Source: Candidatus Pseudoscillospira falkowii (lineage in GTDB: Bacteria; Bacillota; Clostridia; Oscillospirales; Oscillospiraceae). From it: 51,757 nucleotides of DNA. The position numbers and the translations under genes were made by a program. The stretch is from NCBI GenBank assembly GCA_904374485.1, contig CAJFFX010000005.1, positions 1 through 51,757 of the forward strand, given 5' to 3'. Under the pieces are notes generated by a model, which ran no database searches, was not told the DNA's origin, and saw only the letters and a program-made list of their open reading frames with translations. This document shows positions 24,819-50,644 of this stretch, piece by piece (position 1 is the first letter of the stretch; each line of letters begins with the position of its first letter).

Positions 24819-25173
24819 ACGCCGCAGAAACCGGCTGCAGGAGGCCGGCGTCGACGTGGACGACGCCCTGGAGCGCATGATGGGCAGCGAGGCCCTGCTG
24901 GAGCGCCTGCTGGGGAAATTCCTGGAGGACGAAAATTATCAAAAGCTCTGCACCGCCCTGGATGAAAAGCGGCAGGAGGACGCCGTGGCGGCGTCCCACA
25001 CCCTCAAGGGCGTGTGCGGAAATCTCTCCATGCCGGCGCTGTTTTCCCTCTTTACCCGCCAGGTGGAGGCCCTGCGCGCCGGCGACTGGACGGCCGCCGC
25101 GGCGCTGATGGAAGAGATCCGGCCCGCCTATGCGCGGGCGCGGGAAGCCATTTCGGACTATGAGCAGGGCTGA
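24811..25173 (+). CDS. HPt histidine phosphotransfer protein
   Basis: The 120-residue helical product contains the HPt core DAVAASHTLKGVCGNLSMPAL with the phospho-accepting histidine in SHTLKG (about residue 61). A free-standing HPt relays phosphate between a hybrid kinase receiver and another receiver. It overlaps both neighbours, the HD-GYP gene and the hybrid kinase gene (start 25160), which indicates co-translation and a shared relay. Confidence 0.9.
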   Translation: MDERRRNRLQEAGVDVDDALERMMGSEALLERLLGKFLEDENYQKLCTALDEKRQEDAVAASHTLKGVCGNLSMPALFSLFTRQVEALRAGDWTAAAALMEEIRPAYARAREAISDYEQG

Positions 25174-27688: not shown

Positions 27689-27757
27689 AGAAACGGGCTG
27701 CCTCGTTTGCGGCCCGAAAGGGGACAGGATCTGTCCCGGGAAGCTGAGGGATCAACC

Positions 27758-31869: not shown

Positions 31870-34460
31870 GCGCAACGGAAAAAGCAGCATCCGGTCGGGA
31901 GGAGCTCCTGACCCAGCAGCCGCCCCTGATCATCGGCATCGGCGCGTCTGCGGGCGGGCTGGAGGCGCTGCAGCAGTTCTTCAGCTATATGCCGGCCAAC
32001 AGCGGGCTGAGTTTTGCGGTGGTGCAGCACCTGTCCCCGGATTATAAGAGCCTGATGGCCGACATTCTGGGCAAACATACGGAGATGACAGTCTGCCAGG
32101 CGGAAAACAAAATGCCCGTCGAACCGGACACCGTCTATCTGATCCCGCCGAAAAAGTACATGACCGTCAAGGATGGGAAACTGCTCCTGTCCGAGTCCCC
32201 TGGCACATTGAATCACCCCATCGACGCCTTCTTCGCCTCCCTGGCGGAGGAGAAGAGGGAACACGCCATCGCCGTGGTCCTCTCCGGCACCGGCTCCGAC
32301 GGCACCAACGGCGTGAAGGCGGTCAAGGAGGTGGGCGGCCTGGTCATCGCCCAGGCGCCGGAAAGCGCCAAGTTCGACGGCATGCCCCGCAGTGTCATCA
32401 ACACGGGCCTGGCGGACTTCGTCCTCTCCCCGGAGGAGATCGCCGAGGAGATCCTGAATTTCTCCAACACGCCGGTGCTCCTCCGCGCACCCAAGAGCGA
32501 CAGCGTGCTCCCGGATGAGGACATGCTCTTTTCCGAGGAGGAGACTCTCAGCCATATCTACACCATTCTGAAAAACGCCAGCGGCATCGACTTTACCTAT
32601 TACAAGCGCTCCACCATCCTGCGGCGCATCGAGCGGCGCATGCTGGTCACCCACACCAGCAGCCTCTCGGAGTTTGCCCGCCTGCTGGGCGACAGCCCCG
32701 ACGAGGTCAACATCCTGGTCAAGGAGATCCTCATCGGCGTGACCAACTTCTTCCGGGACCCGGCGTTCTTTGAAAAGCTCAAGTACAACGCCATCTACAA
32801 GATCGTGGAGCGGGCCAAGGAAAACGAGCCCATTCGCGTCTGGAGCGCCGGCTGCTCCACCGGCGAGGAGGCCTACTCCATCGCCATCCTCTTCCAGGAG
32901 GTCATGGAGGAGATGCAGGTGAAGCGGGACGTGAAGATCTTTGCCACCGACGTGGACAGCCGGGCCATCGAACAGGCGGGCAAGGGCATTTTCTCCGAAA
33001 ACATCATCGACGACGTGTCCCCCGACCGGCTGGCCAAGTATTTCATCAAGCAGAACGACCAGTATCACATCTCCAAGTCCATCCGGCGGATGATTGTCTT
33101 CGCCACCCACAACATGTTCTCCGACCCGCCCTTCGGCAAGCTGGATCTGATCAGCTGCCGCAACGTGATGATCTATTTCCAGCCGGTGATGCGCCGGGGC
33201 CTCTTCGCCATTTTCCACTCGGCGCTGAAAAACGGGGCCTTCCTCTTCCTGGGCAAGAGCGAGACCGCCGGGGAGTACATCAGCCTTTTCAAGCCCGTCT
33301 GCTCGGCGGAGAAGATCTATGTCCACAAGGCCGAGGGCAAGGTGGAAGATCTGGCGCCCCCGACGTTCAATATCCCCAACATCCAGAACATCTCCCTGAA
33401 GAATATCCACGCCGGCCTGAGCCAGAGCAGCGACGCCGCCATGGAAAACCGCTATACCCATTTTCTGGAAAGCCACCTGCCGGCCTCCGTGGTCGTCGGC
33501 CAGGATGACACGGTGCTCCATTTCTTCGGCAACTACAGCGATTATCTGACATTGGGGCCTGGGAAGGCGTCGCTGAATTTCTTTCACATGATCTGCAAGG
33601 ACCTGGCCCTGGTGGCCTCCACGGCCCTGAGCCGCTGCCGCACCGAGCGCACCGCCATCACCTATACCGACATCGCCGTGGACACCCCCTCCGGCCGCAA
33701 GGTCATCGACCTGACCGTGGAGCCCATCCCCGACGAACAGGACGGGGAAAGCGGGCTGGCGGCCGTCCTCTTCCAGGAGAACGCCGCGCCCAAGGTCGGC
33801 GGCGTGGTGGAAAAATACGACCTGGACGCCACCGCTGCCCGCCGCATCGCCGATCTGGAGCGGGAGTTCCAGGTGTCCCAGAGCGACCTGCGCGCCACGA
33901 TCCAGCGCCTGGAAACGGTGAACGGCGAACTGCAGGCCGCCAACGAGGAACTGCTCACTGCCAATGAAGAACTGCAGAGCTCCACCGAGGAGCTGCAGTC
34001 GGTGAACGAGGAACTCTACACCGTCAACACCGAGCACCAGCTGAAGCTGGACGAGCTGACCATGATGACAAACGACCTGTCCAACTTCCTGTCCTCCACC
34101 ATGATCGGCATTTTGTTTGTGGACAGCAACCTGAACATCCGCAAATTCACCGAATATGTGGGCCGGGAGTTCCAGCTGATGGAGCACGACGTGGGCCGCA
34201 ATATCCAGATCTTCGCCCACAGCTTCCCCGACGAAGCCATCGGGGAGGACTGCCGCACGGTGCTCAAGGACCTGATCTCCATCGACCGGGAGGTCACGGC
34301 CATGAACGGCCGGTGTTATACCCTGCGCATCGCCCCCTACCGCACCACGGAAAACAATATCCGCGGCCTGGTCATCACCATCATCGATTCCCTCGGCGCC
34401 TTCCAGGATGACCGGACGTCTGCGGAGGACGGACAAAAATCCTCGGAAGGGACATTGTGA
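31866..34460 (+). CDS. CheB-CheR-PAS fusion (chemotaxis-type methylesterase/methyltransferase)
   Basis: The 864-residue product has a CheB methylesterase domain (GIGASAGGLEAL with Ser, VQHLSPDYKS with His, LSGTGSDGTNG with Asp; about residues 20-205). Next is a CheR domain (TNFFRDPAFFEKL, WSAGCSTGEEAYSIAI, ISCRNVMIYF; about 225-475). A long coiled coil rich in Glu-Glu-Leu repeats (about 665-735) and a PAS domain (about 740-850) follow. Such fusions usually sit in front of or within signalling proteins and link receptor-like methylation to other outputs. No chemoreceptor is in the window. Here the relay and c-di-GMP genes around it suggest a non-chemotactic use. GGAGGAGC precedes the ATG. Confidence 0.93.
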   Translation: MSATEKAASGREELLTQQPPLIIGIGASAGGLEALQQFFSYMPANSGLSFAVVQHLSPDYKSLMADILGKHTEMTVCQAENKMPVEPDTVYLIPPKKYMTVKDGKLLLSESPGTLNHPIDAFFASLAEEKREHAIAVVLSGTGSDGTNGVKAVKEVGGLVIAQAPESAKFDGMPRSVINTGLADFVLSPEEIAEEILNFSNTPVLLRAPKSDSVLPDEDMLFSEEETLSHIYTILKNASGIDFTYYKRSTILRRIERRMLVTHTSSLSEFARLLGDSPDEVNILVKEILIGVTNFFRDPAFFEKLKYNAIYKIVERAKENEPIRVWSAGCSTGEEAYSIAILFQEVMEEMQVKRDVKIFATDVDSRAIEQAGKGIFSENIIDDVSPDRLAKYFIKQNDQYHISKSIRRMIVFATHNMFSDPPFGKLDLISCRNVMIYFQPVMRRGLFAIFHSALKNGAFLFLGKSETAGEYISLFKPVCSAEKIYVHKAEGKVEDLAPPTFNIPNIQNISLKNIHAGLSQSSDAAMENRYTHFLESHLPASVVVGQDDTVLHFFGNYSDYLTLGPGKASLNFFHMICKDLALVASTALSRCRTERTAITYTDIAVDTPSGRKVIDLTVEPIPDEQDGESGLAAVLFQENAAPKVGGVVEKYDLDATAARRIADLEREFQVSQSDLRATIQRLETVNGELQAANEELLTANEELQSSTEELQSVNEELYTVNTEHQLKLDELTMMTNDLSNFLSSTMIGILFVDSNLNIRKFTEYVGREFQLMEHDVGRNIQIFAHSFPDEAIGEDCRTVLKDLISIDREVTAMNGRCYTLRIAPYRTTENNIRGLVITIIDSLGAFQDDRTSAEDGQKSSEGTL

Positions 34461-34506
34461 TCCAACAGGTAAACCCCCCTTGGATCCCCTGAAAGGAGGC
34501 TGACCT

Positions 34507-35892
34507 ATGGCAGAGAAATGGACGCCGGTCCCGGGCTGCACCCGGGAGGAAGAGGCCGTCGGGCTGACCCGGTTCCTGCTTCGGAAGCACTACCGGGAGA
34601 GCAATGCCGCGGCGGATGAAAGTATCTTTGACGAACCGTTTTTCTGGTTCGGCGCCGCTGAACAGGAGTTTTCGGTCGATCGTGAAGAGGTCGTCGGTCT
34701 GTTCCGCCGATTTGTGGGGCAAGTGCCGCGGTGTAATTTGACGGAGGAGGACTTCCATGCTGTCATGATCGCCCCGGATGTATGTATGGTGGCTGGCCGG
34801 CTCTGGGTGGCAACGGACCCGTCTACAGGCGTGTTTCTCCGGGTCCATCAGCGGATCACCACCTGCGTGCGATGGAAAGAGGAAAAGCCCAGGCTCTGTA
34901 TGCTCCATCTCTCCAACCCCTATGTGGAGATGACCGAGGACGACGTGGGCTTCCCCACGGAGATGGCGGAGCAGTCCCGGGAATATATGCGCCGCCAGCT
35001 GGAGGAGCAGAAGCAGAAGATCGCCCGGCAGGGCGCGGAACTGACGGATATCTACAACACCGTTTCCTGCGGCATCCTGCGCCTGCTGCGCACGCCGGCG
35101 GGCGAATACCGTCTCTTGACCTTCAACCGCGCCCTGGCCGCCCTCATGGACCGGACCGAGGAGGATGTGGCCGCCATGGATTGGTCCCAGGGCTTCGGCG
35201 CGGACGCCGCCGTCGTGGAGGATATCCAGCGCCTGCGCGCCTCTCTGGACGGGCTGAAAGCGCCGGGGGACCGTTCCGGCGCGGATTATCAGATCCGCAC
35301 CGGCAAAGGCCGCGTGGTCTACCTCCACAGCGACAACGACTTTATCAGCCGGGAGCCGGAGGGGGACGTCATCCAGCGCCTGACCTACGACGTCACCGAG
35401 CGCGTCCGGCTGGAACAGGCCCTCAAGCGCCTGAGCCTGGAGGATCCCCTGACGGGGCTTTATAACCGCAATTCCTTCAACGAGACCATGGCGCGGTTCC
35501 GGTGCGAGCCGCCCTGCCGCCTGGGCGCGGCCTGCTTCGACCTCAACGGTCTCAAGGGATGGAACGACCGCTACGGCCACAGCGCCGGCGACGCGCTGAT
35601 CCGCAGGGCGGGGGAGGTCATCGCCGCGGTATTCCCCGGCAAGGCTTACCGCCTGGGCGGGGACGAGTTTCTGGTGCTGGACGACGAGCGGGAGGAAGCG
35701 GACTTCCGCGCGGCGGTGCGCCGGGTGGAAAAGGCCCTGGAGCGGGAGCACATCAGCGTGTCCGCTGGCATTTCCTGGCGGGAGGGCGGCTGCGACGCCC
35801 GCCGGCAGGCGGACGAGGCGGACCGGCTGATGTACGAGGCGAAGGCCGCCTTTTACGGCGGCCGGAAGCAGTCCCCCGACCGCGGCCGGTGA
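34507..35892 (+). CDS. SnoaL-like/PAS/GGDEF diguanylate cyclase
   Basis: The 461-residue product begins with a domain of about 140 residues of SnoaL/NTF2-like character (FRRFVGQVPRCNLTEEDFHA, GVFLRVHQRITTCVRWKEEK). A coiled stretch (REYMRRQLEEQKQKIARQGAEL), a PAS domain (about 180-300) and a GGDEF domain (DPLTGLYNRNSF, FDLNGLKGWNDRYGHSAGD, RLGGDEFLVL; about 310-455) follow. There is no I-site arginine-aspartate pair. It is cytosolic and should make c-di-GMP. It closes the rightward signalling operon; a terminator follows. Confidence 0.9.
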   Translation: MAEKWTPVPGCTREEEAVGLTRFLLRKHYRESNAAADESIFDEPFFWFGAAEQEFSVDREEVVGLFRRFVGQVPRCNLTEEDFHAVMIAPDVCMVAGRLWVATDPSTGVFLRVHQRITTCVRWKEEKPRLCMLHLSNPYVEMTEDDVGFPTEMAEQSREYMRRQLEEQKQKIARQGAELTDIYNTVSCGILRLLRTPAGEYRLLTFNRALAALMDRTEEDVAAMDWSQGFGADAAVVEDIQRLRASLDGLKAPGDRSGADYQIRTGKGRVVYLHSDNDFISREPEGDVIQRLTYDVTERVRLEQALKRLSLEDPLTGLYNRNSFNETMARFRCEPPCRLGAACFDLNGLKGWNDRYGHSAGDALIRRAGEVIAAVFPGKAYRLGGDEFLVLDDEREEADFRAAVRRVEKALEREHISVSAGISWREGGCDARRQADEADRLMYEAKAAFYGGRKQSPDRGR

Positions 35893-37794: not shown

Positions 37795-38556
37795 ATGAAA
37801 CGTTTGGAAGGAAAGATCGCGATCATCACCGGCGCCAACTCCGGCATCGGCAAGGCCACGGCGGAGCTGTTTGCCCGGGAGGGCGCAGACCTGGTGCTGG
37901 CCGCCCGTCGGCTGGACAAGCTGCAGGAAGTGGAAAAATATGCCAAGGAACAGGGCGTGCGGGCCGTGTCCGTCCCCACCGACGTGAGCCGCAGCGAAGA
38001 CTGCCGCAAACTGGTGGAGGCCGCCATTCAGGCCTTTGGCCGCATCGATATCCTCGTCAACAACGCCGGTATCGACGACAAGGGCATGTCCATCACCAAC
38101 TGCGACCACGACTTGTGGAACAAGGTGATCGCCACCGACCAGGATTCCGTTTATTATATGATGAAAGAGACCCTGCCCTATATGGAAAAGAACGGCAGCG
38201 GATCCATCGTCAACATCTCCTCCATCGGCGCCACCCGCTCCAATGCCGGTATTTCCTACACCGCGGCCAAGATGGCCGTCATCGGCATGACGAAGAACGT
38301 GGCCATCCAGGTGGCCGGCACCGGTATCCGCTGCAACGCGGTTTGCCCCGGCCCCACCGAAACGCCGATCTTCGACCCAGCGAATGCGGCCACTTTCGAT
38401 CAGGAATTTTCCGAACTGTGCGCCCGCCACTTCGACCGGTCCCTGCCCCGCACCCAGCCCGAGGATCAGGCCAACGCCATCCTCTTCTTTGCCAGCGACG
38501 AGTCCAAGGCCGTCAACGGCGAGACCCTGGTGGTGGATCACGGCGCCACTATTTGA
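37795..38556 (+). CDS. Short-chain dehydrogenase/reductase, candidate phloroglucinol reductase
   Basis: The start ATG 37795 follows AAGGAG with 10-base spacing. The 253-residue product is a classical SDR: TGANSGIG cofactor motif (about 12-19), the AARR end of strand 2 whose arginines favour NADPH, NNAGI, and the catalytic set with Ser in ISSIGATRSNAG and YTAAK. Many SDRs share these features. The specific call comes from context: the ring-opening hydrolase, hydroxy-acid dehydrogenase and BKACE lyase of phloroglucinol breakdown lie a few kilobases downstream, and the known phloroglucinol reductases are NADPH-dependent SDRs forming dihydrophloroglucinol. It is separated from the main operon by two leftward genes. 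Confidence 0.8.
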   Translation: MKRLEGKIAIITGANSGIGKATAELFAREGADLVLAARRLDKLQEVEKYAKEQGVRAVSVPTDVSRSEDCRKLVEAAIQAFGRIDILVNNAGIDDKGMSITNCDHDLWNKVIATDQDSVYYMMKETLPYMEKNGSGSIVNISSIGATRSNAGISYTAAKMAVIGMTKNVAIQVAGTGIRCNAVCPGPTETPIFDPANAATFDQEFSELCARHFDRSLPRTQPEDQANAILFFASDESKAVNGETLVVDHGATI

Positions 38557-39346: not shown

Positions 39347-40258
39347 TCAGGGGTGCCGGGCGGCGTAGGTGTTGTCGATGTGCTCGTAATAATGCCGGAG
39401 GAAGAACCGGAAGCGCCGGCCCTGATCGTTCAGGGGATAGCGCTTGTTATAGGCGATGCCCCAATAGGCGTCCGGCGAGCCCTCGGCGTATTCCCGATAG
39501 ACCAGGCCCTGGGTGCGGCCCTGGAGGCAGAGCTCTTTATACTTGACCAGGGGCAGGATGGAGATGCAGCGTTTGGACGCCACCAGGGAGAGCAGCAGCC
39601 CCATGTGGCGCACATCGTAGTCGATGTTGGGGCTGAAGCTGAACTTGGTGGTTTCAGCGGCGTAGAACGTGTCCCGGTTGACGCGGGAGCCGTCGATGGC
39701 CAGGCGCTGGTTTGCCAGCTGGCGGCGGGTGACGGTCTTTTCCTGGGCCAGGGGATGGTCCTCGCTCATCACCAGGACGAAGGGGCAGTGGTAGACGCGC
39801 TCGTAGGCCACCTCCTCCGACGGGGGCGGCAGCACCGTCAGGGCCAGGTCCACGTCGCCGTGTTCCAGCATGGTCGTGATGGCGGGCAGGTCCGCCCGCA
39901 GCTGGCGCAGGCTGATATCGGGGTTTTCCAGAACGAAACGCTCGAGAAGCTCGGTATCGTCGATCATGCAGGCGAGGGACAGGGCGTCTTCCTGGCCGGC
40001 GCTCTGCTCCCGGACGGCCTGGACGCCGGCGTCCAGGATCGCCACGGCCTTTTTCACGTTCTTGAGCAGCAAAGCGCCGTTCTGGTTGAGGGAGATCTTG
40101 CCGCGCCGGCGTTCGAACAGGGGAGCGCCGACCTCTTCCTCCAGGCGGGAGATGCTGGTGCTCAGGTTTGGCTGGGACACAAAAAGAGTTTCGGCGGCCT
40201 TGGACATATTTCCCAATTCGGCCACGGCAATGAAATAGCGCAGTTGTGAAAGTTCCAT
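39347..40258 (-). CDS. LysR-family transcriptional regulator of the catabolic cluster
   Basis: The 303-residue product has the LysR N-terminal helix-turn-helix (LRYFIAVAELGNMSKAAETL, then FVSQPNLSTSISRLEEEVGA, LFERRRGKISL) and a two-lobed effector domain (about 90-295). It is divergent from the OFA transporter gene that opens the main catabolic operon, with 224 bases between starts, the usual arrangement for an activator responding to a pathway compound. GGGAGGGATTTTGGC precedes the ATG. Confidence 0.93.
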   Translation of the reverse strand: MELSQLRYFIAVAELGNMSKAAETLFVSQPNLSTSISRLEEEVGAPLFERRRGKISLNQNGALLLKNVKKAVAILDAGVQAVREQSAGQEDALSLACMIDDTELLERFVLENPDISLRQLRADLPAITTMLEHGDVDLALTVLPPPSEEVAYERVYHCPFVLVMSEDHPLAQEKTVTRRQLANQRLAIDGSRVNRDTFYAAETTKFSFSPNIDYDVRHMGLLLSLVASKRCISILPLVKYKELCLQGRTQGLVYREYAEGSPDAYWGIAYNKRYPLNDQGRRFRFFLRHYYEHIDNTYAARHP

Positions 40259-40482
40259 GCCAAAATCCCTCCCGGTGGATATTAAAATTGTTTATACCGC
40301 TAGTCATATTATATATTTTTCAACAAAGTTTGTAAAGGTTATACTAAATTCGCGAAAAGACATTCCGGAGTGTCAAGCATGTCGCGGGAGAGAGAAACTG
40401 TAAAAATTTTCCGCGGTGCAATGGTTCAAGCCATTTTTTGGGAGGGACGAAGAACGTCCCACTTAGGAGGAATGTGATTATT
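40259..40482 (+). promoter_or_regulatory. Divergent control region between LysR gene and catabolic operon
   Basis: AT-rich sequence at 40280-40350 stands out from the GC-rich flanks and is the likely LysR-binding area. A weak promoter TTTTCA (40317-40322), 17 bases, TATACT (40340-40345) faces right; a weak -35 box suits activation. The leader carries the hairpin GGGACG-AAGAA-CGTCCC (40444-40460) directly before AGGAGG (40465-40470). Confidence 0.55.
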
Positions 40483-41754
40483 ATGCAACAGAGCAAAAAA
40501 GGCTTCGGCGCCTGGGGTTGGTTCCTGCTGATCTTCGGTCTGCTGATTTTCTTCAGCAACGGCGGCTTCTTCGCCGACGGTACCAACGTCATTGCCCCTG
40601 CTGTGGCGGAGCGGCTGGGCGTTGACCGGACGGTCATCCTGAACATGAACTCCGTGGCCGGCATCATCGGCGTGGTCATCGCCATCATCGCCGGTCAGGT
40701 CAACCGCCGCATCGGCCCCGCCAAGGTGGCCGCCGGCTGCCTGATCCTGGCAGGTCTCGGCCATATCGCCACCGGCAACGCCACGAGCGTTGCCATGTAC
40801 CTGATCGCCATGTGCTGCGTGGGCGGCGGCCTGAGCGCCGGCTCCTTCGTCGGTATCGGCACCCTGGTGGCCATGTGGTTCCCCCGCAAGCAGGGCCAGG
40901 CCATGAGCGTTGTGGCCATGGGTTCCAACTTCGGCACCATGCTGTTTGTCCCGCTGCTGACCGTCCTGGTGGGCAGCATCGGCATCGCCACCAGCTCCAT
41001 CATCTGCGGCGCTGTGGCAGTGGTGGTCGGCCTGATCGGCGCGGTCATGCTGCGCAATACGCCTCAGGAGCGCGGCCTGTATCCCGATAACGTCACGAAG
41101 GAAGAGTTCGAGGCCAGCTATGCCTCCGCCGCGCCGGAAGAGGATCCCCACGGCTGGACCACCGGCAAGCTGCTGGCCACCAAGGAGACCTGGCTGTGCG
41201 TGCTGTCCACCGGTCTTCTGATGCTGATCCAGATGGGCATCATGACCCAGCTGGTCGCCCGCAACATGGAAGTGGGCATGAACCAGGCCATGGCCACCGG
41301 CGTGATGAGCGCCATCGCCGTTATCGGCATCATCGGTTCCGTCATCATCGGCGGCATCGTGTTCAAGATGGGCATCAAGAAAGCCGGCGTGATGGTCTGC
41401 ATCCTGTACATCGTCGCTCTGCTGTGCAATATCAGCGGCATCATGCCCCTGGTGTGGGTGTCCCTGGTGATCATCGGTTTCCTGGGCGCCGCGGCTCCCA
41501 ACCTGATGAACTCCATCCCCGGCTCTGTGTTCGGCCGCCTGGGCTATGCCAAGGTCAACAGCGTGGTCTTCCCCATCACCAGCATGATCTATATGTGCAA
41601 CTTCGCCGTCAACGGCGTTGTCCAGAAAGCGTTCGGCAGCATCAGCGCGGTGTATATCGTGTTCGCTGTGATGGCGCTCGTCTCCCTGCTGCTGATCCTC
41701 GCCATCCAGGATCACAAGTATGACCAGGACTATATGGCTGCGCACAAGAACTGA
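40483..41754 (+). CDS. MFS transporter, OFA (oxalate:formate antiporter-like) type
   Basis: The 423-residue product has 12 predicted spans. The N-terminal half contains GGGLSAGSFVGIGTLVAMWF and PRKQGQAMSVVAMGSNFG, the conserved loop of this branch where OFA members read like WFPRKRGLA. The central loop (EEFEASYASAAPEEDPHGW) separates the halves. OFA-family carriers move small carboxylates or similar anions. As first gene of the operon it likely imports the phenolic substrate or exports an acid product. ATG 40483 is preferred to an in-frame GTG at 40474, which is too near the ribosome site. Confidence 0.88.
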   Translation: MQQSKKGFGAWGWFLLIFGLLIFFSNGGFFADGTNVIAPAVAERLGVDRTVILNMNSVAGIIGVVIAIIAGQVNRRIGPAKVAAGCLILAGLGHIATGNATSVAMYLIAMCCVGGGLSAGSFVGIGTLVAMWFPRKQGQAMSVVAMGSNFGTMLFVPLLTVLVGSIGIATSSIICGAVAVVVGLIGAVMLRNTPQERGLYPDNVTKEEFEASYASAAPEEDPHGWTTGKLLATKETWLCVLSTGLLMLIQMGIMTQLVARNMEVGMNQAMATGVMSAIAVIGIIGSVIIGGIVFKMGIKKAGVMVCILYIVALLCNISGIMPLVWVSLVIIGFLGAAAPNLMNSIPGSVFGRLGYAKVNSVVFPITSMIYMCNFAVNGVVQKAFGSISAVYIVFAVMALVSLLLILAIQDHKYDQDYMAAHKN

Positions 41755-41810: not shown

Positions 41811-43091
41811 ATGAGCAAAAAGTCTCTCGTCGCGTTGGCTCATGGCAAAGACGTTCAGGAAAACGTTACCCGCGTCTTTGACATGATGGGCGGTGTCACC
41901 AACCTGATCAAGCCCAACACCACCGTGGTGCTCAAGCCCAACGCCGGCCACGCCGCTCCTGCGGACTTCGCCGTCTGCACCCATCCCGAAACCGTCCGTG
42001 CCGTCATCCATGAGGTGCGCAAGGCCAACCCCAAGCGCATCGTGATCGCCGAGTCCGCCGCCGTGGGCTGCGACACCATGGAGTGCTACGAGGCCTGCGG
42101 CATCGCCGAAATGGCTCGTGAAGAAGGCGTGGAGCTGTACGATATCAAGCGCGAGAAGGACCTCATCAATGTGGCCGTGCGCGACTATCGCTCCAACATC
42201 ACCCATGTGAAGCTGCCCAAGCTCCTGCTGGAAGCTGAGCACATCATCAATATGCCCATCCTGAAGGCCCACGCCAGCATGGTGTTCTCCGGCGCGCTGA
42301 AGAACATCAAGGGCGTTGTGCAGGATCAGGTCCACACCACCATGCACCGTCAGAACCTGACCATGGCCATGATGGACGTGTGGAGCGTCTGCCGTCCCGA
42401 CATCAACATCATGGACGTCATGCACGCCGCCAGCGGCTATTCTCCCCACACCCCCACGCCCATCGAGCTGGACTGCGTCATGGGTTCCAAGGACCCCGTG
42501 GCTCTGGACCGTATCGCCTGCGAGCTGACCGGCATCGATCCCGACGGCGTGAGCTACTTCAAGGTGGCTGACGAGGCCGGTCTGGGCACCACCAACCAGG
42601 CTGACATCGAAGTGGTCGGCGACAAGGTCGAAGACTGCTACAAGAAGATGTGGGTCCCCTATCTGGAGGACATCCACAACCGCTGGCCCGAGTACGACGT
42701 CCACTGCGACGGCGCCTGCTCCAGTTGCCAGGCTCTGCTGACCCTGAACATGGAGACCCTGAAGGCCATCGGCATCTATGACGAGAACAAGGGCATGACC
42801 ATCGTGGCCGGCTGCGACAATAAGCTGGATCCCGAGACCCCCGACGAGAAGATCATCCTCCACGGCAACTGTACCCGCAAGCACCTGAAGGAGCATCCCA
42901 ACGCCTACTTCCTGCCCGGCTGCCCTCCCGGGGAAGGTTCCCTGTACATGACCGTCGTCCGCAAGGAAGCCGTCACCGGCCAGCAGGAGCTGATGCCCTG
43001 GATCCGCCAGCGCATGGAAGACGACGCTCCCGCATGGCGCGGCTATGTTGAGAAAGAGGCCGAGAAGTTCTATGGAACGGACAATCCCTGA
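41811..43091 (+). CDS. DUF362-family protein of unknown role in the catabolic cluster
   Basis: The 426-residue product starts at ATG 41811 behind AAGAAGGAGG. It matches the DUF362 pattern: VVLKPNAGHAAPADFAVCTHPETV, KRIVIAESAAVGCDT, HIINMPILKAHASMVFSGALKNIKGV, and DPVALDRIACELTGID. A cysteine group (Cys299-x3-Cys303-x2-Cys306, in HCDGACSSCQ) plus later Cys in AGCDN, GNCTRK and PGCPPG could hold an iron-sulphur cluster or zinc; the typical ferredoxin-type CxxCxxC of other DUF362 proteins is absent. It lies between the transporter and the dehydrogenase, so a role in the same pathway is likely, but none of the known steps lacks an enzyme. Confidence 0.85.
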   Translation: MSKKSLVALAHGKDVQENVTRVFDMMGGVTNLIKPNTTVVLKPNAGHAAPADFAVCTHPETVRAVIHEVRKANPKRIVIAESAAVGCDTMECYEACGIAEMAREEGVELYDIKREKDLINVAVRDYRSNITHVKLPKLLLEAEHIINMPILKAHASMVFSGALKNIKGVVQDQVHTTMHRQNLTMAMMDVWSVCRPDINIMDVMHAASGYSPHTPTPIELDCVMGSKDPVALDRIACELTGIDPDGVSYFKVADEAGLGTTNQADIEVVGDKVEDCYKKMWVPYLEDIHNRWPEYDVHCDGACSSCQALLTLNMETLKAIGIYDENKGMTIVAGCDNKLDPETPDEKIILHGNCTRKHLKEHPNAYFLPGCPPGEGSLYMTVVRKEAVTGQQELMPWIRQRMEDDAPAWRGYVEKEAEKFYGTDNP

Positions 43092-43383
43092 GAAAACCGA
43101 AGTCCCGGTCAAAGACCCGACGGAAGGTTATGTGTTCCTGCCCAATGCCCAGGAACTGATGAAACTGCTGGAAGACGTGTTCACCGATGCATTCATGCAG
43201 GAGAACAGCCGCTTCGATGATTTCGACGGCTTCAAGTTTTCCAGCGCGGTGATGGTCAACTGGCAGGCGGAGACCATCGTATACGCCCCGCTGCTGCTGG
43301 ACGCTTTCGTGAAGGAAAGCACCCGCTTCGGCAGCTGGGACGAGATGGTCCGCACCGCCACCGCCCAGCGCTATCACGGCTGA
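43072..43383 (+). CDS. Uncharacterised 103-aa protein coupled to the DUF362 gene
   Basis: ATG 43072 lies inside the DUF362 gene's last codons (20-base overlap); ATG 43045 is an in-frame alternative. The product is acidic and mixed alpha/beta, with segments YVFLPNAQELMKLLEDVFTD, FKFSSAVMVNWQAETIVYAP and STRFGSWDEMVRTAT. I do not recognise a family. Tight overlap suggests that it forms a complex with the DUF362 protein or is needed in fixed ratio to it. The dehydrogenase gene follows after 78 bases. Confidence 0.65.
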   Translation: MERTIPEKTEVPVKDPTEGYVFLPNAQELMKLLEDVFTDAFMQENSRFDDFDGFKFSSAVMVNWQAETIVYAPLLLDAFVKESTRFGSWDEMVRTATAQRYHG

Positions 43384-43461: not shown

Positions 43462-44424
43462 ATGGAAATTAAAGACATCAAGCGCACCGCCTGCGTGGGC
43501 GGCGGCGTCATCGGCTCCAGCTGGGCGATCCAGTTCGCCATGCGCGGCCTGGATGTGACGCTGTACGACATCAATGACGAGCAGCTGAAAAAGAGCGAAA
43601 CGCAGATGCACAAGAGCCTGGACGCTCTGGAGAACTTCAAGGCCATCACGCCGGAGCGCCGCGCGGAGATCGTTTCCAAGATCCGCCTGACCACGTCGAT
43701 GGAAGAGGCTGTCAAGGACGCCCAGTTCATCCAGGAAAGCGGCCCTGAGCGCCTGGAGATCAAGCAGTCCATCCTGGCCCAGGTCGAGGCCGCCGCCGCG
43801 GACGATGCGATCTACGCCAGCTCTACCTCCGGCCTGCTCATTTCCGACATCGCCGCCAAGGCGGCCCATCCCGAGCGCTGCGTGGGCGCCCATCCCTACA
43901 ATCCGCCGCACCTGATCCCCCTGGTGGAGATCACCTCCGGCGACAAGACCGACCCCGCCGTTCTGCAGCTGGCCTATGACTTTTATCAGTCCATCGGCAA
44001 GGAGGCCGTCCTCCTGCGCAGAGAGTGCCCCGGCTTCATCGCCAACCGCCTGCAGCTGGCCCTGTACCGCGAGATCCAGGATCTGGTCATGCGCGGTGTC
44101 TGCTCCGTGGAGGATGCGGATAAGGCCCTGGTTTACGGCCCCGGCCTGCGCTGGGCCATCTTCGGCCACAACATGATCATGCAGCTGGGCAACCCCGGCG
44201 GCCTGACCGGCATGGTGAAGATGCTGGGCAACTCCGGCGATGTGTGGCTGAAGGACATGGCCTCCTGGACCCATCAGCCCGACGACTGGGCGGAAGTGGC
44301 TCAGCCCGGCGTGGACGAGGAAATGAAGAACTTCCCCGACTACATCGGCCACACCAACGAGGAGTGCGCCGCTTACCGCGACCAGATGCTCATCGAGCTG
44401 CTGAAGCTCCACCGCAAACTGTAA
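43462..44424 (+). CDS. 3-hydroxyacyl-CoA-dehydrogenase-like enzyme, candidate 3-hydroxy-5-oxohexanoate dehydrogenase
   Basis: The 320-residue product has an N-terminal NAD domain (CVGGGVIGSSWAIQFA, DVTLYDIND) and the 3HCDH C-terminal domain. The catalytic region reads ESGPERLEIK, SSTSGLLISDIA, GAHPYNPPHLIPLVEI (His), and GFIANRLQLAL (Asn). These resemble L-carnitine dehydrogenase and related enzymes acting on free 3-hydroxy acids rather than FadB-type CoA substrates. With a BKACE enzyme and a ring-opening hydrolase in the same operon, the fitting substrate is (S)-3-hydroxy-5-oxohexanoate, oxidised to 3,5-dioxohexanoate (triacetate) with NAD+. AAAAGGAGAG precedes the ATG. Confidence 0.85.
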   Translation: MEIKDIKRTACVGGGVIGSSWAIQFAMRGLDVTLYDINDEQLKKSETQMHKSLDALENFKAITPERRAEIVSKIRLTTSMEEAVKDAQFIQESGPERLEIKQSILAQVEAAAADDAIYASSTSGLLISDIAAKAAHPERCVGAHPYNPPHLIPLVEITSGDKTDPAVLQLAYDFYQSIGKEAVLLRRECPGFIANRLQLALYREIQDLVMRGVCSVEDADKALVYGPGLRWAIFGHNMIMQLGNPGGLTGMVKMLGNSGDVWLKDMASWTHQPDDWAEVAQPGVDEEMKNFPDYIGHTNEECAAYRDQMLIELLKLHRKL

Positions 44425-44475: not shown

Positions 44476-45735
44476 TTGAAAACAGAACAAACTTTGGCCA
44501 TCGCCGGAGGGGACGCTTTCCAGCGGACCCGATGGCTGTGCCTGCTGGCCGCCATGATCATCTGCGTCTGCGCCGGCTTCGGTTACGCGTGGAGCGTGAT
44601 CCAATCCCCGATCGTCGCTGCCCACGGCTGGCCGGACGGCCAGGTAGCCCTGGCCTACACCATGACAGTGCTTTGCTCCACCATGGCGCCCCTCTTTTTT
44701 GCCCCCCTCATCCGCCGGTTGGGAACCCGCCGGTGCATCCTTCTGGGCGCGGTGCTTTTTGGCGGCGGTCTGTTCTGTACGGGTATGATGACTAGCCTGT
44801 GGCAGCTGTACTTCTGCTACGGCGTGCTTTCAGGGCTGGGCGTGGGCTTTATCTATCCCACGATGATGGCTTATGTGGTGCGCCTGTTCCCGGACCGGTC
44901 CGGCATGGCTTCCGGCCTGGGCACGGCGGCTTACGGCTCCGGCGCCATCCTGTGGGCGCCCGTGGCCGTGGGGCTGATGGAAGGCTTTTCCCTGAGCACA
45001 GCCTTTCGCATTCTGGGCATTTTGTTCCTGGCGGTCATTCTGATCGGCTCCCTGCTGGTGCGGGAACCGCCGGAGGGCTTCCGGGAAGCCCTGTGCCCCG
45101 CGCCGGCGGAAGGCCCCAGCGGCGACGGCCGCGACCTGAACCGGGGCCAGATGGTCCGCACCCCCGCCTTTTATCTGATGCTGGCGGTGTTCACCTGCGG
45201 CCTGGTGGCCGGCGTCATCGTCATCAGCCAGGCATCCCCCATCCTTCAGCAGGCTTACAGTTTCCCTGCGGCCCAGGCGGCGCTGTTTGTCAGCGTGTTC
45301 GCTGCCTGCAACATGGCCGGCCGCTTCCTGTGGGGCAGCCTGTCGGATAAGATCGGCATTCTCACCGCCGTGGCGGTGATCTTCCTCCTGTGCATCCTCT
45401 CCATGCTGACGCTGGCGCTGGTGGGGAGCACGGTGATCGCGGTATGCGCCATGGGCCTGGCCGCCTCCTGCTACGGCGGCTTCGCCTCGGTCCTGACGCC
45501 GCTGACCGCAAAAATGTTCGGACCCCGATACATCACCGAAAACTACGGCGTCATGTATCTGGTGTTTGGCCTGGCCAGCCTCATCGGGCCGGCCCTGGCC
45601 GTGCAGTTCAAGAATGCGGCGGGCGGGAGCTATTCCGGCGCCTTTCTCACTGCGGCGGCCCTGGCGGCGGTGGGCCTTGTGCTCTCCCGCCTTCTGAAAC
45701 CCAACCGGAAAGGAAAACGATATGGAACTGAGTAA
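44476..45735 (+). CDS. Second MFS transporter, OFA type
   Basis: The 419-residue product starts at TTG 44476, seven bases after GGGAGG. It has 12 spans and family motifs including CAGFGYAWSVIQSP, GLGVGFIYPTMMAYVVRLFPDRSGMASGLGTAAYGSGA and FPAAQAALFVSVFAACNMAGRFLWGSLSDKIG, closely following OFA-type carriers. It differs clearly from the first transporter of the operon, so the two may import substrate and export product. Its last 14 bases overlap the CoA-transferase gene, which indicates translational coupling. Confidence 0.88.
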   Translation: MKTEQTLAIAGGDAFQRTRWLCLLAAMIICVCAGFGYAWSVIQSPIVAAHGWPDGQVALAYTMTVLCSTMAPLFFAPLIRRLGTRRCILLGAVLFGGGLFCTGMMTSLWQLYFCYGVLSGLGVGFIYPTMMAYVVRLFPDRSGMASGLGTAAYGSGAILWAPVAVGLMEGFSLSTAFRILGILFLAVILIGSLLVREPPEGFREALCPAPAEGPSGDGRDLNRGQMVRTPAFYLMLAVFTCGLVAGVIVISQASPILQQAYSFPAAQAALFVSVFAACNMAGRFLWGSLSDKIGILTAVAVIFLLCILSMLTLALVGSTVIAVCAMGLAASCYGGFASVLTPLTAKMFGPRYITENYGVMYLVFGLASLIGPALAVQFKNAAGGSYSGAFLTAAALAAVGLVLSRLLKPNRKGKRYGTE

Positions 45736-46375
45736 AGTGCGGGCGAGAGAAGAGATCATCGCCCAGTTCAAGGACGGACAGATCCTTGCCATCGGCGGCC
45801 AGACGAACCAGTACATGCCCGATCGCCTGATCGACTGTGTGCTGGAAAGCGGCGCCAAGCACCTGACCGTCTACTCCATCGACTCCAGCGATCCCGACCA
45901 CGGCGTCAGCCTGCTGCTGCAGAACGGCCGTGTGGACCGGATGATCACCACGCACGTCGGCACCAATCCCCTGACCAACGAACGTATCCAGTCCGGCAAG
46001 CTGGAAGTGGAATTCAACCCCATGGGCACCTTCATTGAGCGCATCCGCTGCGGCGGCATGGGCCTGGGCGGCGTGCTCACCAAGACCGGCATCGGCACCG
46101 TGGTGGAAAAGGGCAAGCAGGTCATCGAAGTCAAGGGCGAGAAGTACCTGCTGGAGACCGCCCTCCACGCCGACGTGGCCCTGACCCGCTGCCGCCGGGC
46201 AGACCCCATCGGCAACCTGACCTACTCCGGCAGCAGCGGCCATGCGTCCCATCCGGTGATCGCCACCTGCGCGGACCTGTCCATCGTGGAGTGCGACCAC
46301 TTCTGCGACCTGGGCGAGATCGGGCCCGACGAGGTCAAGGTGCCCGGTATGTTCGTCGACATGATTCTGGCATAA
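45722..46375 (+). CDS. CoA transferase subunit A (3-oxoacid type)
   Basis: The 217-residue product follows the AtoD/ScoA/GctA plan: an opening helix (SKVRAREEIIAQFKDGQILAIGG), GLGGVLTKTGIGTVVEKGKQVIEVKGEKYLLE, then a stretch near ADVALTRCRRADPIGNLTYSGS. Together with subunit B it would move CoA from an acyl-CoA to acetoacetate, the product released by the BKACE lyase, to form acetoacetyl-CoA. Some CoA transferases of this group act on glutaconate or butyrate; the neighbour enzymes make acetoacetate the better guess. Confidence 0.9.
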   Translation: MELSKVRAREEIIAQFKDGQILAIGGQTNQYMPDRLIDCVLESGAKHLTVYSIDSSDPDHGVSLLLQNGRVDRMITTHVGTNPLTNERIQSGKLEVEFNPMGTFIERIRCGGMGLGGVLTKTGIGTVVEKGKQVIEVKGEKYLLETALHADVALTRCRRADPIGNLTYSGSSGHASHPVIATCADLSIVECDHFCDLGEIGPDEVKVPGMFVDMILA

Positions 46376-46388
46376 GGAGGGGAGAGCC

Positions 46389-47039
46389 ATGATGGATAAC
46401 AGAAACTTTATCGCCAAGCGCGCCGCCGCCTATTTCAAGCCCGGCGACGTGGTGAATCTAGGCATCGGCATCCCCAGTCTCTGCGGCAGCTACGCCGTGG
46501 ACGGCGTGCTGTTCCAGAGTGAAAACGGCTTTATCGGCATCGGCCCCAAGGCCGACGGCCTGATGGTCACCGAGCGTTATGCCAACGCCGGCGGCATCAA
46601 CTTCATTCCCGTGCCCGGCAGCAGCGCCTTTGACGTGGCCATGTCCTTCGGCGTGATCCGCTGCGGCCGTCTGGCCGCCACGGTGCTGGGCGGCCTGCAG
46701 GTCGCCGCCAACGGCGACCTGGCCAACTGGTCCACCCCCGGCCGCGCTTTCGGCATGGGCGGCGCCATGGACCTGTGCAACGGCGCCCGCAAGGTCATCG
46801 TGGCCATGGAACTGACCACGAAGGACGGCAAGCCGAAAATCGTGAACGAGTGCAGCTTCCCGCTGACCGCTGTCCACTGCGTGGACCATGTGGTCACCGA
46901 ACGCTGCGTTATCGACGTGACGAAGGAGGGCCTGGTGCTCTCCGAGATCCGCAAGGGCCACACCGTGGAGGAGATCCAGGCGGCTGTGGAGCCGGAGCTG
47001 ATCGTCGCGCCGGATCTGATTGAAATGGAGGAAGATTGA
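46389..47039 (+). CDS. CoA transferase subunit B (3-oxoacid type)
   Basis: The 216-residue product contains VVNLGIGIPSLCGSY (about 22-36) and the catalytic glutamate motif FQSENGFIGIG (about 45-55), which forms the glutamyl-CoA intermediate. It continues with GGAMDLCNGARKVIVAMELT and ends with the VTKEGLVLSEI region, as in AtoA/ScoB. AAGGAGGGGAGAGCC precedes the ATG, 13 bases after subunit A. A and B form the working heteromer. The thiolase gene starts directly after its stop. Confidence 0.92.
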   Translation: MMDNRNFIAKRAAAYFKPGDVVNLGIGIPSLCGSYAVDGVLFQSENGFIGIGPKADGLMVTERYANAGGINFIPVPGSSAFDVAMSFGVIRCGRLAATVLGGLQVAANGDLANWSTPGRAFGMGGAMDLCNGARKVIVAMELTTKDGKPKIVNECSFPLTAVHCVDHVVTERCVIDVTKEGLVLSEIRKGHTVEEIQAAVEPELIVAPDLIEMEED

Positions 47040-47040
47040 T

Positions 47041-48213
47041 ATGGCAAAACCGCTGAGCAAGACGGTGGTGGTGGCCTATGGCCGCTCCGCCGTGGCAAAA
47101 TCCGGCAAGAAGGGCGCTCTGCGCAACCTGCATCCCATCGATATGGGCGGCCTGGTGCTCAAGGGCGTTATGGAAAAGATCCCCCAGCTGGACCCCAACC
47201 TGGTGGAGGACGTGATCCTGGGCTGCGCCATCCCCGAGGCTAAGCAGGGCCTGAACCCCGCCCGCCTGGTGGCTGCCCGCGCCGGCCTGCCCTACACCGC
47301 CTGCGGCCTCACCGTGGACCGCTTCTGCTCCTCTTCTCTGCAGGCTGTGGCCCTGGCCGCCTGGCAGATCGAAGCCGGCCAGGCCGACTGCATCGTGGCC
47401 GGCGGCATTGAATCCATGACCGCCCTGCCCATGACCCTGGACCGCAGCGGCGATCGGGACCCCTGGCTGGTGGAGCATGATCCCGACCAGTACATCTCCA
47501 ACGGCGACACCGCCGAAAACGTGGCCGAGAAATACGGCGTCACCCGCGAGGAAATGGACCGCCTGGCCCTGGAGAGCCACAAGAAGGCTGCCCATGCCCA
47601 GGACGCCGGTTATTTCGACGAGCAGATCATCCCCCTGCCCGGCGTGGATGCCGAGGGCAACGAGATCGTCTTTGATAAGGATCAGGGCATCCGCCGCGAC
47701 ACTACCCTGGAGAAGATGGCTTCCATGAAGCCCTGCTTCCGCGAGAACGGCCGCGTCACCGCCGCCACCTCCTCCCAGACCAGCGACGGCGCCGCTTTCC
47801 TGGTGCTCATGAGCCGCGACAAGGCCGCGGAACTCGGCATCAAGCCTCTGGCCTCCTTCCTGGGCTTCTGCGTGGGCGGCCTGGATCCCGCCTACATGGG
47901 CCTCGGCCCCATCTACGCCGTGCCGAAGGTCATGGAGTACACCGGTCTCACCGTGGACGATATGGACGTCATCGAACTGAACGAGGCCTTTGCGGCCCAG
48001 GTCAGCCCCTGCATCAAGGAGCTGGGCCTGAACCCCGAGAAGGTCAACCCCAACGGCGGCGCCATGGCTCTGGGCCACCCCCTGGGCGCCACCGGCGCAG
48101 TGCTGAGCTGCAAGGCCATCAGCGAGCTGCGCCGCACCGGCGGCAAGTATGCCCTGGTGACCATGTGCATTGCCGGCGGTATGGGCGCAGCCGGCATCTT
48201 CAAGGCGGAATAA
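47041..48213 (+). CDS. Acetyl-CoA C-acetyltransferase (thiolase)
   Basis: The start ATG 47041 lies one base after the CoA-transferase stop, behind GGAGGAAGATTG. The 390-residue product has all thiolase marks: nucleophilic Cys in DRFCSSSLQA (about residue 98), GGIESMT, NEAFAAQ, NPNGGAMALGHPLGATG with the catalytic His, and Cys in TMCIAGGMGAA. In this operon it would cleave acetoacetyl-CoA with CoA to two acetyl-CoA, the last step of the proposed pathway. A degradative direction is inferred from context only. Confidence 0.95.
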   Translation: MAKPLSKTVVVAYGRSAVAKSGKKGALRNLHPIDMGGLVLKGVMEKIPQLDPNLVEDVILGCAIPEAKQGLNPARLVAARAGLPYTACGLTVDRFCSSSLQAVALAAWQIEAGQADCIVAGGIESMTALPMTLDRSGDRDPWLVEHDPDQYISNGDTAENVAEKYGVTREEMDRLALESHKKAAHAQDAGYFDEQIIPLPGVDAEGNEIVFDKDQGIRRDTTLEKMASMKPCFRENGRVTAATSSQTSDGAAFLVLMSRDKAAELGIKPLASFLGFCVGGLDPAYMGLGPIYAVPKVMEYTGLTVDDMDVIELNEAFAAQVSPCIKELGLNPEKVNPNGGAMALGHPLGATGAVLSCKAISELRRTGGKYALVTMCIAGGMGAAGIFKAE

Positions 48214-48289: not shown

Positions 48290-49312
48290 ATGGGTAAACC
48301 TTTAGCTGATTACGTAAAACTGCCCCAGCTGGACGAGTACAAAGAGTGGTTCAAGGACTTTGCAGACCTGTACCGTGAAGACGGTATCCTGCAGGTCACC
48401 TGGAAGACCCTGGATGGTCCCATGCAGCACAGCGGCATGTCCCACCGGGCCATCAGCCAGCTGGTCCGCGTCCTGTCTCTGGACTATCAGAATGAGATCA
48501 TCATCTTCACCCACATCGGCGACAGCTGGATGACCGAGTCCGACCCCAACGGCTGGGAGACCTATTCCAAGCTGCCCACCGAGCGCTTCCAGCATCAGTA
48601 TTTCGATGACACCAACCTGATCAAGAACATGATCTTCGATCTGGATGTGCCCACCATCGGCTGCCTGCCCGGCCCCGGCTTCCACTGGGATTCCGCCATG
48701 CTGAGCGACATCACCATCGCTTCCGAAGACACCTGGATCGAAGTGCCCCACGCCCACGGCGGTCTGGTCCCCGGCGACGGCATGGGCCTGATGGCACAGC
48801 ACTTCTTCGGCACCAAGCGCGGCAACTACTACATGATGACCTCCCGTCAGTGGACTGCCCAGCAGATGCTGGATTGGGGTATGGTCAGCGAGGTCGTGGC
48901 CAAGGATCAGGTCCTGCCCCGCGCCTGGGAGATCGCCCGCATGCTGAAGACCATGCCTTATGAGAACCGCACCATCATGTCCAACCTGGCCAAGCGTCCT
49001 CTGAAGAAGCTGCTGGTGGAGGACCTGAAGCTGCACACCGTTTCCGAGCAGTACGCTTCTCTGCTGCGCATCGCCGCCGGCGACATGGGCGACCGCAATG
49101 CCGCTCAGCAGGATGAGAAGTACATCAGCATGACCAACGACTGGCGTTACTGCCACGACTGGATGCAGCAGCCCCCCACGCGCGAAAGCTGGGCCGGCTT
49201 CCGCACCAAGCCCATCGAGTGGTTCGAGAAGGTCAAGGCCGGCGAAGAGGTCAACCCCTTCGATCCCAACCGTCCTGTGAAGCCCTATCGTCCCGAGCCC
49301 GCAGACAAATAA
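48290..49312 (+). CDS. Crotonase-superfamily C-C hydrolase, 6-oxocamphor-hydrolase-like; candidate dihydrophloroglucinol cyclohydrolase
   Basis: ATG 48290 sits nine bases behind GGAGG. The 340-residue product is a crotonase fold but lacks enoyl-CoA hydratase features. Its active region reads LPGPGFHWDSAMLSDITIAS, VPHAHGGLVPGDGMG and FFGTKRGNYYMMTSRQWTAQ, which lines up with 6-oxocamphor hydrolase. His132, His154 and Asp163 correspond to that enzyme's catalytic His122, His145 and Asp154, with almost equal spacing. That enzyme opens a cyclic beta-diketone by retro-Claisen hydrolysis, the same chemistry needed to open dihydrophloroglucinol to 3-hydroxy-5-oxohexanoate. The C-terminal about 90 residues (DWRYCHDWMQQPPTRESWAG) are extra. 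Substrate is inferred from neighbours. Confidence 0.85.
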   Translation: MGKPLADYVKLPQLDEYKEWFKDFADLYREDGILQVTWKTLDGPMQHSGMSHRAISQLVRVLSLDYQNEIIIFTHIGDSWMTESDPNGWETYSKLPTERFQHQYFDDTNLIKNMIFDLDVPTIGCLPGPGFHWDSAMLSDITIASEDTWIEVPHAHGGLVPGDGMGLMAQHFFGTKRGNYYMMTSRQWTAQQMLDWGMVSEVVAKDQVLPRAWEIARMLKTMPYENRTIMSNLAKRPLKKLLVEDLKLHTVSEQYASLLRIAAGDMGDRNAAQQDEKYISMTNDWRYCHDWMQQPPTRESWAGFRTKPIEWFEKVKAGEEVNPFDPNRPVKPYRPEPADK

Positions 49313-49407: not shown

Positions 49408-50292
49408 ATGGCAAAAACCATCATTACCGCCGCTCTGACCGGCGCAGTGACCCCCGCAGGCTACAAGATCCCCGAGACCCCCCAGCAGATCGCCGACGAG
49501 GCCTATGACGCCTGGAAGACCGGCGCCGCCATCGTCCATCTGCACATGCGCGCCGACGACGGCCTGGGCGCCATGGACAAGGAGAAGTTCCGCGAGACCA
49601 TCAAGCTGATCCGCAGCCACAAGGACTGCGACGTGGTCATCAACTGCACCTCCTCCGGCGCATCTCCCGAGCATCCCGCCACCGATGACGAACGCATGGC
49701 CCATCACAAGGAACTCCACGGCATCGAAATGGGTTCTTACGACGCCGGTTCCTTCAACTGGATGCCCGGCGGCGTGTTCATGAACAGCCCCCAGTTCCTG
49801 CAGAAGCTGGGCGACCTGTACATGGAGAAGGGCATCAAGCCCGAGCTGGAGATCTTTGACGCCGGCATGCTGGGCGTGGCCAACTACTTCGTGAAGAAGG
49901 GCCACCTGTCCTCTCCCTGTCACTATCAGTTCTGCCTGGGCGTGCTGGGCGGTATGCCTGCCACCGTGGAGAACCTGATGTATCTGGTCAACCACATCCC
50001 CGCCGGCTCCACCTGGTCCGCCTTCGGCATCGGCAAGGGCCATGTGCCGATCATGCTGGCAGCCCTGGCTCTGGGCGGCCATATCCGCGTGGGTATGGAG
50101 GACAACGTGGTCTTCGAAGTGAAGGACAACGGCGAAAAGGTCATGGCCACCAACCACATGCTGGTGGAGCGCGCCGTGAACGTGGTCAAGGCCGTGGGCA
50201 ACACCCCCGCCACTCCCGCCGAGGCCCGCGAGATGCTGGGCATCCCCGCTTTCGACGGCGCCAAGGTCCGTGCGCAGCTGGGCATCGACTGA
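49408..50292 (+). CDS. BKACE (DUF849) beta-keto acid cleavage enzyme, candidate triacetate acetoacetate-lyase
   Basis: The 294-residue product is a full-length BKACE: TAALTGAVTP start, zinc ligands in AAIVHLHMR (His44, His46), VVINCTSSG, the EMGSYDAGSFNW region, LEIFDAGML, and GHIRVGMEDNVV with the conserved Arg and Glu. BKACE enzymes join a beta-keto acid with acetyl-CoA, giving acetoacetate and a new CoA ester or the reverse pairing. For 3,5-dioxohexanoate the products would be acetoacetate and acetoacetyl-CoA, both used by the CoA transferase and thiolase of this operon. AAAAGGAGCG precedes the ATG. It is the last gene; a terminator follows. Confidence 0.9.
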   Translation: MAKTIITAALTGAVTPAGYKIPETPQQIADEAYDAWKTGAAIVHLHMRADDGLGAMDKEKFRETIKLIRSHKDCDVVINCTSSGASPEHPATDDERMAHHKELHGIEMGSYDAGSFNWMPGGVFMNSPQFLQKLGDLYMEKGIKPELEIFDAGMLGVANYFVKKGHLSSPCHYQFCLGVLGGMPATVENLMYLVNHIPAGSTWSAFGIGKGHVPIMLAALALGGHIRVGMEDNVVFEVKDNGEKVMATNHMLVERAVNVVKAVGNTPATPAEAREMLGIPAFDGAKVRAQLGID

Positions 50293-50323: not shown

Positions 50324-50644
50324 CTACTCGATAAGAAACAGCGACTGCCAAAAGGCGCGCCCCCATAAGGAAGTACTTTGATTGCCGCAGGACGGCATGG
50401 CTGAAAGGTCATGCCGTCCTGCCTTTTCTTTGCCGTTCCACAGTCTGATCGTCGCCCGGGAGGTCATCGCCGCGGAGCAGACGCTCCTTTCAGACGAACG
50501 GCCCAGCTGTGGCGGTTCCGCTATACCGCATTCCGGCTGATTTGTCAGCCTGTCGCTGCGGATCAGCCGTAGAATTTTATCTTCCATCGGTTTCTCGGCG
50601 GTTTCGCTGAGGCAGGCACGAACTTTATAGGTGGTGTTGCCCAA
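50324..50644 (-). pseudogene. Possible remnant of a small transposon-accessory (TnpW-like) gene
   Basis: The reading frame starts MGNTTYKVRACLSETAEKPM and continues EDKILRLIRSDRL, which resembles the start of short TnpW-type proteins encoded beside transposon recombinases in Clostridia. The remaining about 70 residues look random and cross a terminator hairpin. It is the only coding-like signal in the 670-base gap 50293-50965. Recognition is from memory of the family's start and is weak. Confidence 0.3.
50387..50431 (+). terminator. Terminator of the catabolic operon
   Basis: GCAGGACGGCATG (50387-50399) pairs with CATGCCGTCCTGC (50410-50422), followed by CTTTTCTTT. It lies 95 bases after the BKACE stop. 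Confidence 0.85.

Follow-up and report, generated by a model that had tools for sequence, protein, structure and literature searches.

The closest described systems are the phloroglucinol cluster of Clostridium scatologenes and two crotonase-fold enzymes, 6-oxocamphor hydrolase (OCH) and Anabaena beta-diketone hydrolase (ABDH). The C. scatologenes cluster has been verified and comprises PGR, the Mn-dependent cyclase DPGC, TfD, TAL, a thiolase and a CoA-transferase (PMC10470551). Note that the verified TfD lacks the CoA-phosphate Lys56 and that, at a pocket position occupied by Glu14 in the lysine-pathway cleavage enzyme, the verified triacetate lyase has Trp16 (PMC10470551). ABDH is cited as coenzyme A-independent, with the known catalytic residues D153, H144, E243 and H43. 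A mycobacterial 'ECH' structure, 3q1t, has also been argued to be better read as a beta-diketone hydrolase (PMC3584854). This case is a precedent for OCH-family members misannotated as ECH.

Assignment of the gene to the OCH family

We analysed a stretch of 51,757 nucleotides from Candidatus Pseudoscillospira falkowii, referred to as the window. The gene of interest is a complete open reading frame of 340 codons, from an ATG at 48290 to a stop codon ending at 49312, with a GGAGG ribosome-binding site on its 5' side. The gene and its relevant parts are as follows.

48290..49312, plus strand: OCH/ABDH-type crotonase-fold beta-diketone hydrolase (the OCH-like protein), 340 amino acids; assigned from sequence, residues, model and tree
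48443..48445, plus strand: codon for His52 (OCH His45, ABDH His43)
48683..48685, plus strand: codon for His132 (OCH His122)
48689..48691, plus strand: codon for Asp134 (ECH Glu144 position; Glu124 in OCH)
48749..48751, plus strand: codon for His154 (OCH His145, ABDH His144; ECH Glu164 position)
48776..48778, plus strand: codon for Asp163 (OCH Asp154, ABDH Asp153)
49046..49048, plus strand: codon for Glu253 (OCH Glu244; ABDH Glu243 by position)
49088..49309, plus strand: C-terminal extension of about 74 amino acids beyond the point where OCH ends; the model shows part of it (279-316) as helix

In a search of all PDB chains, the OCH-like protein matched OCH best (1o8u, E 9.2e-32) and ABDH second (2j5g, E 2.9e-31). 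The next match, an enoyl-CoA hydratase (E 1.2e-9), is more than 20 orders of magnitude behind. With OCH (1o8u/1szo) the protein shares the fold, five active-site residues and the VPGDG motif, at 29% identity over 236 aligned residues. With ABDH (2j5g/2j5s) it shares the fold, H43, H144, D153 and, by position, E243, at 32% identity over 224 residues. The first-pass annotation had suggested overlaying a predicted structure on OCH. We did so with an AlphaFold2 model built from an alignment of 42 relatives (pLDDT 80.9, pTM 0.85). All 12 top Foldseek matches were OCH or ABDH chains, and an OCH His122Ala mutant is named among the matches. VIA-align Z scores were 26.8 for OCH (rmsd 2.5, 249 aligned), 25.7 for ABDH and 23.7 for the best annotated hydratase. 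In a phylogenetic tree, the OCH-like protein, its relatives, four divergent members, OCH and ABDH share one side of a branch with 100/100 support, and Crt, PaaF, PaaG, CaiD and MenB lie across it. Note that the divergent members have 32-36% identity and that some outgroup branches are long.

Active-site residues were compared by alignment rather than by model coordinates. We take the OCH set to be His45, His122, His145, Asp154 and Glu244. The first-pass annotation had read the site as that of an OCH-type retro-Claisen enzyme rather than an enoyl-CoA hydratase, and the sequence, model, tree and residues bear this out. The three residues that it named, His132, His154 and Asp163, were placed exactly; they stand opposite OCH His122, His145 and Asp154, and the surrounding VPGDG is identical, letter for letter, in OCH. 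Two further OCH residues are also present, as His52 and Glu253. None of the five varies across 70 full-length relatives; in two divergent members (L135 and L139), Gln replaces His at position 52.

The protein differs from OCH in three respects: it has Asp, not Glu, two residues past His132; it occurs in gut anaerobes, within an operon that encodes a beta-keto acid cleavage enzyme (BKACE); and it is longer at the C-terminus. ABDH also lacks this extension. The extension had been put at about 90 residues. It exists, but amounts to about 74 residues past the end of OCH (approximately 267-340). Its tail is variable, and family members of 282-300 amino acids are without it.

Since the top matches, invariant residues, model and tree all point to OCH and ABDH, there is good support for a hydrolytic retro-Claisen reaction that cleaves a free beta-diketone. 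The OCH-like protein is assigned to a small, CoA-independent family cleaving C–C bonds of 1,3-diketones, and we estimate a probability of roughly 0.78 for the predicted reaction type. The gene is under purifying selection, with dN/dS between about 0.09 and 0.14 for three relatives compared (dN 0.033 and dS 0.379 against Flavonifractor sp. An112; dN 0.099 and dS 1.07 against Olsenella). We conclude that these proteins make up a real, conserved and previously uncharacterised branch within an enzyme family that is already known. Few OCH family members have been studied, and this large, strictly conserved gut and rumen branch broadens the family.

The operon compared with the phloroglucinol cluster

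The genes and sites around the OCH-like gene are listed here.

37795..38556, plus strand: SDR dehydrogenase, a candidate pathway enzyme; 87% identity to a Flavonifractor sp. An10 SDR upstream of the same LysR
39347..40258, minus strand: LysR-type regulator, divergent
40308..40345, no strand assigned: divergent promoter-like sites between the LysR gene and MFS transporter 1
40483..41754, plus strand: MFS transporter 1
41811..43091, plus strand: DUF362 protein with many conserved cysteines and a weak LarA-like fold match
43072..43383, plus strand: small conserved protein after DUF362, without a Pfam family
43462..44424, plus strand: TfD-like 3-hydroxyacid dehydrogenase; nearest solved relative lambda-crystallin
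44476..45735, plus strand: MFS transporter 2; L-lactate MFS transporter model above cut-off
45722..46375, plus strand: CoA-transferase subunit A (CtfA-like)
46389..47039, plus strand: CoA-transferase subunit B (CtfB-like)
47041..48213, plus strand: acetyl-CoA C-acyltransferase (thiolase)
49408..50292, plus strand: BKACE; Val14 where KCE has Glu14 and TAL Trp16
50387..50422, plus strand: strong terminator-like hairpin of 16 pairs, directly 3' of BKACE

The order MFS, DUF362, small protein, TfD-like, MFS, CtfA, CtfB, thiolase, OCH-like and BKACE runs in one direction with gaps below 100 bases, and the hairpin is the probable operon end. Both this locus and the C. scatologenes cluster have a TfD-like dehydrogenase, a BKACE, a thiolase, a CoA-transferase, an MFS transporter and a transcriptional regulator. 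However, the window operon has the crotonase-fold enzyme where C. scatologenes has the Mn cyclase, adds DUF362 and the small protein, and encodes a BKACE with Val14 rather than the Trp16 of TAL. It also differs in PGR; no PGR-type gene was found among the operon genes. The neighbouring SDR was considered as a phloroglucinol reductase. The solved structures closest to it are gluconate 5-dehydrogenases, and it was not adopted in that role, which it may nevertheless have.

In the TfD-like protein the catalytic Ser, His and Asn are all present; as in verified TfD, Lys56 is missing. Hence, the intermediate is likely to be a free, non-CoA 3-hydroxy acid. DUF362 is in the same Pfam clan as LarA (PMC11770544). 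The DUF362 model is poor (pLDDT 64.5) and its LarA-like matches are weak (E 9e-4 and worse), so the resemblance is a lead only. The LarC family (PF01969) is represented in the same genome, and was not found in three relatives with the OCH-like gene. In two genomes (L105, L109) DUF362 adjoins a PF04199 cyclase, and the small protein trails DUF362 in cyclase clusters as it does in crotonase clusters. The pairing of DUF362 with either enzyme suggests that one and the same slot can be taken by a cyclase or by a crotonase.

Proposed pathway

Beyond family membership, residues, operon and recurrence of the module, which the computations show, we infer the reaction, a cyclic and hydroxylated substrate, and the order of steps as follows. 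A free 1,3-diketone would be bound and water activated by the His/Asp/Glu set H52, H132, H154, D163 and E253. Water would then attack one carbonyl and the bond to the central carbon would break, yielding a keto acid in a retro-Claisen reaction. With a cyclic 1,3-dione bearing an extra hydroxyl, such cleavage would open the ring to give a free 3-hydroxy keto acid, whose 3-hydroxyl the TfD-like enzyme may oxidise. BKACE is predicted to convert the 3-keto acid and acetyl-CoA to acetoacetate and an acyl-CoA, with CtfAB and thiolase taking acetoacetate to acetyl-CoA.

The first-pass annotation had assigned the protein to the ring-opening step of cyclic-diketone catabolism. It is operon context, and that alone, that speaks for this part of its reading; even so, we consider that the OCH-like protein probably opens the ring of a cyclic dione. 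The broader proposal is of an undescribed fermentation route that many Oscillospiraceae would have in common with some Lachnospiraceae, Olsenella and Propionibacterium. In it, a cyclic 1,3-dione derived from plants or the diet would be opened by OCH-type enzymes, which are frequently present as tandem paralogs, with a DUF362 (LarA-clan) partner. The route would operate alongside the phloroglucinol pathway, but independently of it, within the same cells. We regard the chances of this proposal as evenly balanced. If such a separate route is real, gut bacteria are expected to ferment a cyclic diketone of dietary or plant origin to acetyl-CoA.

Which substrate is cleaved

Dihydrophloroglucinol had been put forward as a likely substrate. 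The OCH-like protein would then be a non-homologous substitute for the Mn-dependent DPGC in what is otherwise the standard phloroglucinol pathway. The operon content, equal to the C. scatologenes cluster minus PGR and DPGC, is consistent with this, as is the pairing of DUF362 with cyclase or crotonase. Moreover, the window's own genome contains no detected PF04199 cyclase, an absence that is provisional at 86% completeness. Phloretin hydrolase was likewise not found in this 86% complete genome, again provisionally, and this counts against the proposal, as does the operon's missing PGR-type gene. The BKACE pocket argues further against it. Position 14 is Val, Ile or Met in 23 of 23 BKACEs compared from crotonase loci (Val in the window), compared with Trp in the verified triacetate lyase. 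A further seven BKACEs carry Trp at that position, and none of the seven adjoins a crotonase. For four of them a PF04199 cyclase is found within 11 kb (L118, G692:C19; L119, G411:C23; L124, G411:C1; L133, G466:C1). For a fifth (L120) the nearest cyclase is about 230 kb away, and the contigs of the remaining two (L121, L123) carry none. Some PF04199 cyclases have BKACEs of a third type, with Gly, nearby. Three genomes (G411, G466 and G692) each carry a Trp-BKACE and cyclase cluster plus, elsewhere, a crotonase cluster. Because the BKACE residues are split in this way, and both clusters occur in these three genomes, the compound processed by the crotonase cluster is, in our judgement, a different one. 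Dihydrophloroglucinol is therefore unlikely to be the substrate. The substrate is most likely a different, hydroxyl-bearing cyclic 1,3-dione, related to dihydrophloroglucinol and favoured over it.

Sequence and fold determine the type of chemistry but do not say whether the substrate has a ring. Hence, the OCH-like protein could cleave an acyclic 1,3-diketone or a beta-diketo acid with no ring opening, and the phosphotriesterase-family (lactonase-like) and SDR genes frequently found nearby are in keeping with this. However, the solved relatives OCH and ABDH both act on bicyclic diketones, with product complexes among the Foldseek matches, and the parallel with the cyclase-containing cluster favours ring opening. 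An acyclic substrate is thus improbable, and we retain a hydroxylated cyclic dione as the preferred candidate.

Comparison with enoyl-CoA hydratases

Automatic annotation of the OCH-like gene would read enoyl-CoA hydratase. Pfam detects ECH_1 alone (residues 115-236). None of the 25 NCBIfam models listed for the protein reaches its cut-off, and many of those below it are hydratase models. The same genome encodes a canonical crotonase (L002:1366-2142, minus strand) with both catalytic glutamates, adjoining a 3-hydroxybutyryl-CoA dehydrogenase; it has the crotonase fold in common with the OCH-like protein, at 21% identity. The glutamate pair that would mark a hydratase is absent from the OCH-like protein, where His154 takes the Glu164 position and Asp134 the Glu144 position. 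An acid is retained at the latter, and since OCH and ABDH have Glu there, we regard this as a family trait and no sign of hydratase activity. That the protein is an ordinary CoA-dependent enoyl-CoA hydratase or isomerase, as the ECH_1 and sub-threshold NCBIfam matches and the neighbouring thiolase and hydroxyacid dehydrogenase might suggest, is very improbable given the replaced glutamates, the missing NRPEALNAL stretch found near the N-terminus of the canonical crotonase (as judged by alignment only), and the placement with OCH and ABDH by sequence, Foldseek, VIA-align and tree. Genes labelled enoyl-CoA hydratase can, as this branch indicates, be C–C hydrolases.

Distribution and recurrence of the module

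The OCH-like gene was found at 72 loci in named genomes. Among Oscillospiraceae these include Flavonifractor (F. plautii ATCC 29863 among them), Pseudoflavonifractor, Intestinimonas and others. Further loci are in Lachnospiraceae, Coprococcus catus, Olsenella profusa, Propionibacterium australiense and a Treponema bin. The gene is patchy, since only the window's own copy was recovered (E 1e-20) when 391 genomes of the class were searched. Within the family of the window genome, 23 of 300 genomes have matches (E 1e-40). More than one copy is present at 14 loci. The proteins have two tail types, ending ...KPYRP and ...HSNEPDWYKF; several Flavonifractor loci have one copy of each in tandem and the window has the first type only.

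Genes at related loci were called by a simple ORF script, not a trained gene finder. In 30 long loci, BKACE was near the OCH-like gene in 13, TfD-like in 12 and thiolase in 12. The module therefore recurs, but BKACE or TfD accompanies the gene in only 13 of the 30, which counts against the operon-based reading. In many rumen genomes, the OCH-like gene adjoins only a CoA-transferase gene. A 32%-identical family member (L137) sits in the run SDR-OCH-thiolase-BKACE-TfD-kinase. At four loci in Actinomycetota, Treponema and Clostridia (L013, L014:5258-8481, L033 and L040), the OCH-like gene is found with an SDR of the gluconate-5-dehydrogenase type, an acetoacetate-decarboxylase-like protein and a CoA-acylating methylmalonate-semialdehyde dehydrogenase (above the NCBIfam cut-off). 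These different neighbours suggest that downstream fate varies. We found no description of a crotonase-BKACE cluster in open-licence papers on OCH, diketone hydrolases, resorcinol reductase or Flavonifractor BKACE.

Other gene associations were also apparent. At metagenome-assembled loci L018-L024, L029, L030 and L051, on stretches without BKACE, the OCH-like gene adjoins a butyryl-CoA:acetate CoA-transferase-like gene, mostly with a LysR gene. The phosphotriesterase-family genes near the cluster are of two types (L004, L005, L006, L008, L011, L020, L025 and L038). Elsewhere in the window, a Baseplate_J protein (4387-5433) lies among small genes at the start, probably a remnant of a contractile-tail phage region. 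A hybrid sensor histidine kinase, a CheB-CheR-PAS fusion and a GGDEF protein are clustered at 25130-35892.
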